Of a stretch of 34,633 nt of DNA, positions 27,973-34,633 are shown piece after piece. The stretch spans positions 1 to 34,633 of the forward strand of contig RECI01000220.1 of NCBI GenBank assembly GCA_007694095.1, given 5' to 3'. Each line of letters begins with the position of its first letter. Position 1 is the stretch's first letter. The notes beneath the pieces are model-generated. The model was not told where the DNA came from. It saw nothing but the letters and a program-made list of their open reading frames with translations, and searched no databases. The stretch comes from Balneolaceae bacterium (GTDB lineage Bacteria > Bacteroidota > Rhodothermia > Balneolales > Balneolaceae). Position numbers and translations under genes: made by a program.

Positions 27973-28026
27973 TAATGCCTGAAAAGCTTCTGCCGGAAAG
28001 GCCTGAAAAACCGGGGGATTGACAGA

Positions 28027-28071
28027 ACACCGAATATCGAATATCGAACACCGAATATTGAATATTGAATG
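28027..28071. repeat. Short GAATATCGAA-type microrepeats
   Basis: Successive CACCGAATATCGAA/GAATATTGAA words in tandem. Related words occur at 28213-28230 and at the start of both copies of the large direct repeat (33330-33365, 34440-34470), so this is a dispersed low-complexity family. Confidence 0.6.
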
Positions 28072-28090
28072 CCGCCCCGTGAGAAATATC

Positions 28091-31597: not shown

Positions 31598-31709
31598 TGG
31601 TTTGTAGTATCCAGTATCCAGTATCACGGTTGTCTAGAACAACCTGTCAGGTCAACCTTGAACCTTAATCATCAATCGCAAGACTCTGGCCCCGAAGGGA
31701 TCCCGTTGG

Positions 31710-31816
31710 GGCAGGAGCGCCAAAAAGCGGCGCACTCTGTCAGGTCAACCTTAATCCTTAAACCCCCGACTCTGGCAGGAGCGCCAAAAAGCGGCGCACT
31801 CTGCCAGGTCGTCCTT
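31710..31816. repeat. Tandem pair of hairpin-bearing 43-mers before mnmE
   Basis: Copies at 31710-31752 and 31774-31816 (offset 64) share GGCAGGAGCGCCAAAAAGCG, GCGCACTCTG and CAGGTC. Each holds the hairpin GCGCC-aaaaagc-GGCGC. The second ends 75 bp before the mnmE start, so it could also lie in the leader of the mnmE transcript. Confidence 0.6.
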
Positions 31817-31891
31817 GAACCTTGACCGGCTGGGTGTAATTTGTTTGAATTTGGCTTATCATTTGAGCTCGGGCTAATTATTGCCGCTTTT

Positions 31892-33316
31892 ATGAACACT
31901 ATCAGTCAAAATCTGCCGATTGCCGCGATTGCCACTCCTATTGGAGAGGGAGGAATTGCCGTGATCCGTGTTTCGGGCAGGGAATCTATCCGGAAAGTGA
32001 GCGGATGCTTCAGGGGCAAAAATCTTGAGGATGCCGATACACACACAGTCCATTTTGGCAGGATCATAAAAAAGGATGGCCGTGTGGTGGATGAGGTGTT
32101 GGCAGCCGTGTTCCGTGCCCCCAAATCGTACACGGGCGAAGATACGGTGGAGGTCTCGTGTCATGGCGGCGTACTGGTGACACAGGCTGTTCTCGAAACC
32201 ATCCTTGAACAGGGCATCCGGGCGGCAGAACCGGGCGAATTTACCCGGCGTGCTTTTCTGAACGGGAAACTGGAACTGAGTCAGGCCGAAGCGGTGGCCG
32301 ATCTGATTCATGCCAAAAGCATCAAAGCGGTTGATGCCGCTAATCAACAGCTTGAGGGGCGGCTTGGAGAACATGTTAAAACATTCCGGCAGCAGATTAT
32401 TGACGCCACGGCGATGGTGGAGCTGGAGCTCGATTTTATTGAGGAAGATGTGGAGTTTGCCAACAAAGATCAGCTGCGGAAACTGCTGGCTGATGTGAGT
32501 GATGAAATTGACAGCCTCCTGGATACGTACGAAACCGGCCGCCTGGTAAAAGACGGGGTAAAAACAGTATTCATCGGCCGGCCTAATGCAGGCAAATCCA
32601 CGCTGCTTAACACCCTCGTGGGAACCGACCGCGCCATTGTAACCGCCATTGCCGGAACCACCCGCGACACCATCGATGCCGACTGGAGTTTCGACGGACT
32701 GTTGTTCAAACTGATTGATACCGCAGGACTGCGCGAAACGGAAGATGTGATTGAAGCCGAGGGCGTCAGACGCTCCCAACAAGCATTTGAACGGGCCGAT
32801 CTGGTGGTGTACCTGAAAGACCTCTCCCTGCCGCTGGATGCAGAAGAGCGTAAAGAAATTGCCGGGTTTCAAAAACGGGCCGGAAACACCCCGTTCCTGT
32901 TGATCGGCACCAAACTGGACTTGGACCGCACGCCCGAGAGTGACAAGAACCGGGAGATATCCGGTACTCAGAAACCCGTACATCAAGAACAACGCCTCCA
33001 TTATGATCTCCAAATCTCTGCCCGCAAAGGCCAAAATATTGATGCACTAAAAAAAGCGATGAAACAGCGTGCCCTCGAAAACAAAGACTATGATGCATCA
33101 AGCCTGCTCGTCACCTCCTCGCGCCATCGTGACGCATTGCAAAAAGCCCGTGAGAATGTGCAGCGGGCCATCGCCGCCCTCGACCAGGGGATCACCGGCG
33201 ACTTCCTCTCCATCGACCTTCGTGCCGCTTTAAAAGAATTAGGTACCATTACGGGGGAGATTACCAATGAACATGTTTTAGATTCGATTTTCTCCCGGTT
33301 TTGCATCGGCAAATAA
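31892..33316 (+). CDS. mnmE: tRNA uridine-5-carboxymethylaminomethyl modification GTPase MnmE
   Basis: MnmE with MnmG modifies U34 in the anticodon of several tRNAs. From ATG 31892 it has 474 residues: the folate-binding N-terminal domain (IAAIATPIGEGGIAVIRVSG, APKSYTGEDTVEVSCHGG), a helical domain, an inserted G domain with P-loop GRPNAGKST, AIAGTTRDT, DTAGLRET and TKLD, and the invariant C-terminal CIGK. All key elements are intact. The earlier ATG at 31841 adds 17 residues ahead of a typical MnmE start and is rejected. mnmG is not in the window. The stop is followed after 24 bp by the large direct repeat. Confidence 0.97.
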   Translation: MNTISQNLPIAAIATPIGEGGIAVIRVSGRESIRKVSGCFRGKNLEDADTHTVHFGRIIKKDGRVVDEVLAAVFRAPKSYTGEDTVEVSCHGGVLVTQAVLETILEQGIRAAEPGEFTRRAFLNGKLELSQAEAVADLIHAKSIKAVDAANQQLEGRLGEHVKTFRQQIIDATAMVELELDFIEEDVEFANKDQLRKLLADVSDEIDSLLDTYETGRLVKDGVKTVFIGRPNAGKSTLLNTLVGTDRAIVTAIAGTTRDTIDADWSFDGLLFKLIDTAGLRETEDVIEAEGVRRSQQAFERADLVVYLKDLSLPLDAEERKEIAGFQKRAGNTPFLLIGTKLDLDRTPESDKNREISGTQKPVHQEQRLHYDLQISARKGQNIDALKKAMKQRALENKDYDASSLLVTSSRHRDALQKARENVQRAIAALDQGITGDFLSIDLRAALKELGTITGEITNEHVLDSIFSRFCIGK

Positions 33317-33340
33317 AATACTATTGAATATCGAATATTG

Positions 33341-33516
33341 AACACCGAATATCGAATATCGAAGGCTTTGAATAATGAATATAGAATGTCCAATTTCGAA
33401 TGTCGAAGTGCCTCCTCCTTCGATATTCAGTATTCATTATTCGATATTTCCATCCCCTCGGCTGACGATTGCTTTTCTCGTCTGTCGAATCTCACCCCCC
33501 CCGACTGACGAAGTGC
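33341..33516. repeat. Large direct repeat, left copy (flanks the 163-residue gene)
   Basis: This 176-bp sequence starts AACACCGAATATCGAA and ends GACTGACGAAGTGC. The right copy, at 34457-34633, has only scattered differences; the offset is 1.1 kb. Inside, four 12-mers occur in the order A (33354-33365), B (33370-33381), A' (33417-33428), B' (33431-33442), where A' and B' are the exact complements of A and B. The last third contains CTCGGCTGACGATTGCTTTT and CTCGTCTGTCG, another potential hairpin. Confidence 0.85.
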
Positions 33517-33866
33517 CCCCATGGGGGCTGAACGAACGGAGTGTGTGAATGGAGAGATCTCGCTTACGCGGGGAAAATATGAGCCAAGTTCTGAGGAAAT
33601 TCCAATAGAAACAATATACTGAGTATGTAGTAACGCCGGATCAAAAAAATGAACGCGTTATTTTCCTCGATGGTGAAGGTGTTTTCAGGTAAGGCGGACT
33701 GTACCAATGTTAGGAGATTCAGGTACATTAAACCTGGGTGAGTTTGATATTCAGAAAAAGAAATTTTTAAACTATACTATTTTTTTGATAATTGTATTGT
33801 GGATAAAGTTCTTGAACACTTTAAATGAGTATTATATTATAAAATTGATTAATCAAATTTTTCATA
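33517..33866. other. Region between the left repeat and the 163-residue gene
   Basis: The first 80 bp are G+C-rich and then composition drops sharply to A/T-rich. A 63-codon open frame (33707-33898) overlaps the next gene in another frame and looks unconvincing. No clear promoter or known feature is seen, though the promoter of the 163-residue gene probably lies here. Confidence 0.4.
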
Positions 33867-34358
33867 ATGAAAATATCTTCCGGAAAAAGAATAGTTAAGA
33901 AAATTTTAAGAAAGTTTGGATTAACAGAACAATTAGACAGAAATATCAAAAATATTCATATTAGAAAGGATGTTGAATTAATTCCCATCCAGCCTAACCT
34001 TGAGTTTGCAGTGTACTGGAAAGTCTTACTTGTTGGTAAGGGGCCTGCTGTTATTTTAAAAGCGTTCGGCAGAGAGGTGATGAAGTTCGATGTATTTGGC
34101 AAGGATAAAGGTCATTATCACGTAGCTCCTTGTCATAATTTGAGGATTTTTTTCACTGAAGAAACAGTACTTCAACAAATTCAGCGCACTTCACTTGAAC
34201 TTCAGAGAAATGCTCAAAAATATCTGGAGATACAGTCCGACTACCGAATTAAACAAATCAGGATTGATGACGATAAGCTCTCCGATGCTATTCAGAAAAT
34301 GGTGGAGATTATGACATATTTTCTTCAACAAATACCTGAATTTAAAGACCTTCGGTAA
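33867..34358 (+). CDS. Uncharacterised conserved-type protein, 163 residues, in a repeat-bounded cassette
   Basis: The protein has a basic N-terminus (SSGKRIVKKILRKFGLTEQL), then a core beginning LEFAVYWKVLLVGKGPAVIL with the motif FGREVMKFDVFGKDKGHYHV, a segment RIFFTEETVLQQIQRTSLEL and a helical C-terminus. The E-V-x-x-F-D-x-F-G-x-x-x-G-H-Y-H pattern suggests a defined family that I recall only as a domain of unknown function (perhaps DUF7700, uncertain). There is no signal or membrane segment. Its DNA is markedly more A+T-rich than the neighbours, and it is the only gene between two 177-bp direct repeats, both signs of separate origin. Function unknown; accessory or defence-type roles are speculation. 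Confidence 0.78.
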   Translation: MKISSGKRIVKKILRKFGLTEQLDRNIKNIHIRKDVELIPIQPNLEFAVYWKVLLVGKGPAVILKAFGREVMKFDVFGKDKGHYHVAPCHNLRIFFTEETVLQQIQRTSLELQRNAQKYLEIQSDYRIKQIRIDDDKLSDAIQKMVEIMTYFLQQIPEFKDLR

Positions 34359-34456
34359 CTAGAAGAACGTAATAAGCAAGAATCAAAAAAATTAATTCGT
34401 GAAAAGTTAACAAAATGAATTTCAGTATTTTGGGAAATATCGAATAATGAACGCCG

Positions 34457-34633
34457 AACACCGAATATCGAAGGCTTTTGAATAATGAATATAGAATGTC
34501 CAATTTCGAATATCGAAGTGCCTCCTCCTTCGATATTCATTATTCATTATTCATTATTCGATATTTCCATCCCCTCGGCTGACGATTGCTTTTCTCGTCT
34601 GTCGAATCTCACTCCCCCGACTGCCGAAGTGCT
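34457..34633. repeat. Large direct repeat, right copy (reaches the window end)
   Basis: Matches 33341-33516 along its whole visible length, from AACACCGAATATCGAA to GACTGCCGAAGTGC at the last bases. The chief difference is an extra ATTCATT unit in the B' region. The match may continue beyond the window. Confidence 0.85.

Follow-up and report, generated by a model that had tools for sequence, protein, structure and literature searches.

We analysed a stretch of 34,633 nucleotides, hereafter the window, which is the whole of one contig (C20) in the draft genome of a Balneolaceae bacterium (4.56 Mb in 324 contigs, 99% complete). The species is represented by this one genome, and comparisons were made with 28 genomes of the genus and with larger sets of 98 genomes, 145 genomes of the class and 394 genomes of the phylum. 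Near the right-hand end of the window the gene mnmE is followed by two long repeats in the same orientation, which enclose a single gene for a DUF7700-like protein (Table 1). Among the flanking genes this neighbour gave an MnmE_helical Pfam match, which identifies it as mnmE, and its affinities lie within the Balneolaceae, near Rhodohalobacter halophilus and many metagenome-assembled genomes of the family. Just upstream of mnmE, at 31660-31830, we observed another palindrome-like repeat (CAGGAGCGCCAAAAAGCGGCGCACTCTG) in two copies and, near 31600, short tandem repeats of the AGTATCC type.

Table 1. Features of the window that bear on the repeats and the gene between them.
Feature	Position	Strand	Description
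Further heptamer array	28025..28073	+	between the cation ATPase gene and glutamate dehydrogenase; no gene enclosed
mnmE	31892..33316	+	ORF; upstream neighbour; stop codon about 10 bp before copy 1
Copy 1, heptamer module	33326..33452	+	long imperfect hairpin: tandem GAANNNN units, then a conserved centre, then the inverted block; z -3.9
Copy 1, REP palindrome CGGCTGACGATTGCTTTTCTCGTCTGTCGA	33456..33496	+	z -3.8; followed by a partial further unit up to 33516
AT-rich spacer, copy 1 to gene	33517..33866	.	35% GC
Accessory gene, 163 aa, DUF7700-like (PF24777)	33867..34358	+	ORF; profile match
Copy 2, heptamer module	34433..34568	+	hairpin, z -5.1
Copy 2, REP palindrome	34573..34613	+	same loop variant as copy 1

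The two repeats are 91.1% identical across 192 alignment columns, with a local alignment score of 299 against a maximum of 31 among 500 dinucleotide shuffles, and the description in an earlier note on this DNA of two near-identical repeats in the same orientation around one gene is borne out. The note had bounded them at 33341-33516 and 34457-34633; the similarity actually begins a little further to the left, and the aligned copies span 33333-33516 (copy 1) and 34442-34632 (copy 2). Each repeat is built of two modules, a hairpin of degenerate GAANNNN heptamers, with units resembling GAATATC on both sides of a conserved centre, and fused to it a REP-type palindrome of the form CGGCTGACGA..TCGTCTGTCGA, beyond which a further unit is present in part. 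In copy 2 the outermost 19 bp of the heptamer module (GGAAATATCGAATAATGAA) form a perfect inverted pair. The biggest indel between the copies is exactly one 7-bp heptamer, which fits the expectation of slippage. The nearest other copy lies on a different contig of this genome (C312, 10963-11193) and shares 77-79% identity with those of the window, which resemble one another more than either resembles any other copy found. A comparison of the hairpins with Rfam returned sub-threshold matches only.

The contig terminates within copy 2, 20 bp past its REP palindrome, and three further contigs (C312 at both its ends, and C22 and C226) break off within members of this family or close to them. Assembly breaks commonly fall at interspersed repeats. 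C312 is not supported as the continuation of the window's contig: the contig ends do not overlap, and in the relative G023 the ndvB-like/cheB pair that C312 carries and mnmE are on different contigs.

The earlier note called the enclosed gene one of unknown family, and a profile search now gives a DUF7700-like match (PF24777). The protein of the window scores 21 bits against a cut-off of 25, while its 58%-identical relative in G012 passes that cut-off with 27.9 bits and the other relative, in G016, scores 23.3. The motif FDxFGxxxGHYH, which had been picked out from the window protein, extends to KFDxFGKxxGHYHxAP and is kept in all three family proteins. The gene is patchy in its distribution: it is present in three of the 28 genus genomes, of 98 genomes only G012 and G016 hold relatives, at 58-59% identity, and the same three genomes are the only ones with the family among 394 of the phylum. 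The gene differs from mnmE in base composition, as had been noticed (35% GC versus 53%), and the spacer to its right has 25% GC; the genes of its relatives have 39.5% and 37% GC, and the low GC content is partly a trait of the family. In G012 and G016 the gene directly follows an mscS-type gene, and the stretch read around it holds no heptamer array; the mscS gene of the present genome (C264) has different genes alongside. The MBL gene that adjoins it was also sought in this genome, to serve as a marker of synteny, and gave no match. That mscS is its neighbour in two genomes invites the speculation that the DUF7700-like protein has a membrane or osmotic role.

Other assignments of the protein were tried and set aside. 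It has no relative in collections of phages, plasmids and viral contigs, which argues against phage or plasmid cargo; a defence function found no PADLOC match; and matches of superantigen-like OB-fold and PB2-like kinds were weak and under their cut-offs. A structure prediction from the three sequences reached a mean pLDDT of 52, which is too low for fold searching, and the literature searched gave no match for DUF7700.

The heptamer module is dispersed well beyond this locus. Its pattern gives 58 matches in this genome, against none for the reversed-pattern control, and these make up about 20 loci in both orientations beside ordinary genes, most of them single copies; among the flanking genes are a greA-like gene, a GntP permease, glutamate dehydrogenase and a cation ATPase. 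The array at the last two lies within the window itself and belongs to the same repeat family without forming a cassette. The arrays keep a perfect or near-perfect 7-bp periodicity and change their copy number by whole units, the properties that define an intergenic heptamer tandem repeat. Across the class the pattern was found in 41 of 145 genomes, chiefly in this family and its order and in several genera of the Balneolaceae. In four genomes the arrays favour the stop side of genes, by 31 to 11 within 150 bp and by 13 to 3 within 40 bp, with some places in G023 counted twice. An enrichment of toxin-antitoxin (TA) genes beside the arrays was considered and rejected: the 59 flanking genes are broadly mixed, and any one Pfam family turns up in at most 2 of them (the flanking set being counted alone). 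In a relative of another genus (G047:C2:415988-416053 and 544387-544515) we observed long pure tandem arrays of GAACATT, which suggest slippage as the way in which heptamer arrays of this family expand. The literature searched gave no match for the heptamer sequence.

The second module answers to the description of a REP. Its core is a 30-bp stem-loop with one central mismatch, within the 20-40 bp of such short palindromes, and is repeated in the genome; the cores of this genome sit in spacers, and the stop-side preference counted above for the heptamer arrays agrees with the position reported for REPs, mostly after stop codons (PMC3733652). The core occurs in 8 of 28 genus genomes, at 55 places among the matches listed (reversed control 0): 16 in G020, 10 each in G018 and G013, 8 in this genome and fewer in four others. 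In G020, G018 and G013 clusters of this REP flank an orthologous tyrosine transposase gene on either side (L101, G020:C83; L100, G018:C238; L103, G013:C270). The encoded proteins have 64-80% identity to that of G020 and carry an HFHW motif, and those of G020 and G013 match the NCBIfam model REP_Tyr_transpos with E-values of 3e-14 and 3e-15, under its strict equivalog cut-off of 80 bits; we refer to them as RAYTs. In G013 both sides of the REP stem are altered together (CGGC..GCCG). By inspection of core and fold no GTAG is present at the REP and CGTC lies within the stem, so that the REP family tied to RAYT genes in these Balneolaceae lacks the unpaired GTAG or CGTC motif that is usual at one end of the stem (PMC3733652).

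In the present draft assembly the cognate RAYT is absent, the best match having 35% identity and a different palindrome at its flanks, and movement of the composite is accordingly a matter of inference. Several of its other tyrosine transposase genes (L110, L111, L112 and L133, the last on G000:C11) each appear, by eye, to have a different flanking palindrome of their own, and its IS200-like Y1_Tnp genes, which by eye also have other palindromes at their flanks, were rejected as movers of the repeat. Two loop variants of the REP are present here, GATTGC in four composite copies and GAGTGC in four lone REPs, and this division makes it probable that copying took in the composite as a whole.

The earlier note saw in this arrangement an exchangeable cassette that could be gained or lost by recombination between the repeats, an interpretation that is supported only in part. 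In its fuller form a segment between long direct repeats would be gained, lost or swapped by homologous recombination, and accessory modules would so be shuffled among repeat-bearing spacers. Several observations are consistent with such exchange. The direct repeats are long and 91% identical, and the patchy gene between them is located elsewhere in its two relatives. The locus downstream of mnmE, which had been singled out for comparison, varies widely: mnmE has orthologues in 24 of 28 genus genomes, the gene on its 3' side differs across the genus, and in two relatives, G023 and R. halophilus (G019), the mnmE stop codon is directly succeeded by a heptamer hairpin, beyond which still other genes lie. 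On contig C127 three similar repeats with heptamer arrays alternate with two TA pairs, UPF0175/DUF3368 PIN protein and DUF433/DUF5615, in the order repeat-TA-repeat-TA-repeat (L042, 1289-3550); further to the right a third TA pair (Unstab_antitox/ParE) is seen, with a NusG-like gene between. The DUF2442, DUF4143-AAA and RraB genes that are common to G011 and G018 stand in a different order around the arrays of each. In 1.2 Mb of G023 every array of at least three units falls in one 19-kb segment (L258, C1:154000-173900), and a match in these 1.2 Mb was found for 4 of 32 array-adjoining genes of the present genome versus 60 of 194 others (p 0.03, from a small sample whose slots are not independent). 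The same segment contains RraB, HNH, HIT and Fic genes, and other REP-like palindromes beside its arrays. The variable site, the changed gene order, the clustering and the match rate together indicate that arrays gather in variable regions, which may have been made so by recombination at the repeats or may merely tolerate them. Against a cassette stand the placement of most arrays as single copies by ordinary genes, largely the finding that was to count against it, namely a repeat in spacers regardless of their gene content, and the relatives of the DUF7700-like gene, which have no heptamer arrays around them; nor was an allele with one repeat alone or with a swapped gene seen, the species being represented by a single genome. 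A further bracket on C312 weighs on the same side: there two same-orientation composite copies enclose ndvB-like and cheB-like genes, and in G023 this conserved pair stands side by side with its order unchanged (identities of 62% and 44%), with no array of at least three units nearby and no REP core in the whole genome. Direct composites can thus enclose resident genes without any exchange, and being bracketed does not by itself establish that a gene is a cassette. Exchange by recombination between the repeats is possible, and as an account of this locus we consider it rather unlikely. The broader proposal, in which heptamer/REP composites constitute an integrase-free shuffling system in Rhodohalobacter, exchanging single accessory modules (TA pairs, Fic, DUF4143-AAA, DUF7700) between spacers while RAYTs seed new sites, strikes us as distinctly doubtful; should accessory modules indeed be shuffled by the repeats, this would amount to a simple counterpart of integrons that works by recombination.

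Two further readings make the gene part of a recognised kind of mobile unit. The repeats could be the ends of one transposon-like element, a MITE or a REP pair mobilised with the gene as passenger, for which the internal inverted symmetry, the RAYT-linked palindrome and the perfect 19-bp terminal inverted pair of copy 2 might speak; the repeats are direct, however, no transposase lies between them, a second copy of the whole unit was not found (the protein matches the genome once), and the gene's relatives are without surrounding arrays, so that this origin is very improbable. An integron cassette, with the repeats as attC-like sites, would account for a gene-sized unit between similar hairpin-forming direct repeats, but the core boxes GTTRRRY (R') and RYYYAAC (R'') are absent from both repeats on both strands, and the repeats are scattered through the genome in both orientations instead of forming one array; missing core boxes and scattered placement led us to reject it as hardly credible.

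We propose instead that one composite interspersed repeat is present at this locus in two copies, whose position on either side of the gene is incidental and does not make it a unit of exchange; we hold this to be probable. The composite combines two known kinds of interspersed repeat, a heptamer hairpin of the tandem-repeat class found in several genera of the Balneolaceae being fused to a REP palindrome whose family is linked to a RAYT in three related genomes. Such elements build up in spacers, mostly just past stop codons, and gather in variable regions; at this locus mnmE is followed by one copy and, 1.1 kb onward, by a sister copy, with the accessory DUF7700-like gene enclosed between them. 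The composite may have been copied as a unit by a RAYT acting in trans, by a RAYT present in an ancestor, or through local duplication, and the number of heptamers would have drifted afterwards by slippage. Two observations run counter to an incidental bracket: repeats enclose genes in three intervals of about 1.1 kb, two of them on C127 and the third in the window, and accessory genes occupy all of these; and the arrays of G023 are strongly clustered in their one 19-kb segment. The missing cognate RAYT also weighs on that side, and no allele of this site free of the repeats was seen. If our interpretation is correct, the locus illustrates how interspersed repeats can produce an apparent single-gene cassette.

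In the literature searched we found no description of a heptamer hairpin combined with a REP, and the closest known systems each resemble one part of the composite. The REP/BIME elements that accompany RAYTs, as REPtrons and REPINs, are likewise short dispersed intergenic palindromes, mostly past stop codons and often in inverted pairs, which cluster around the RAYT gene in related genomes and persist as orphan copies where the RAYT is absent (PMC3733652, PMC3116915). Unlike these, the REP described here is without the GTAG or CGTC terminal tag (PMC3733652), half of its copies in this genome are fused to a heptamer hairpin, and no cognate RAYT was found in the genome. The TAACTGA repeats of Beggiatoaceae, Cyanobacteria and some Bacteroidetes share the 7-bp tandem units in spacers, the contigs that end inside them and the near-identical assemblages in different spacers, and a role of heptamer repeats in gene rearrangement has been suggested earlier, including for Bacteroidetes (PMC4679880). 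The unit in the Balneolaceae is by contrast a degenerate GAANNNN folded back as a hairpin, and its arrays lie mostly after stop codons, whereas the TAACTGA repeats of the main species stand just before start codons (PMC4679880). Compared by architecture, the BrickBuilt MITE of Porphyromonas gingivalis is also a dispersed intergenic element of tandem units with inverted ends; it is built of 23-bp units with a defined leader and tail (PMC4596501), where the composite repeat has degenerate 7-bp units and a REP as its tail.
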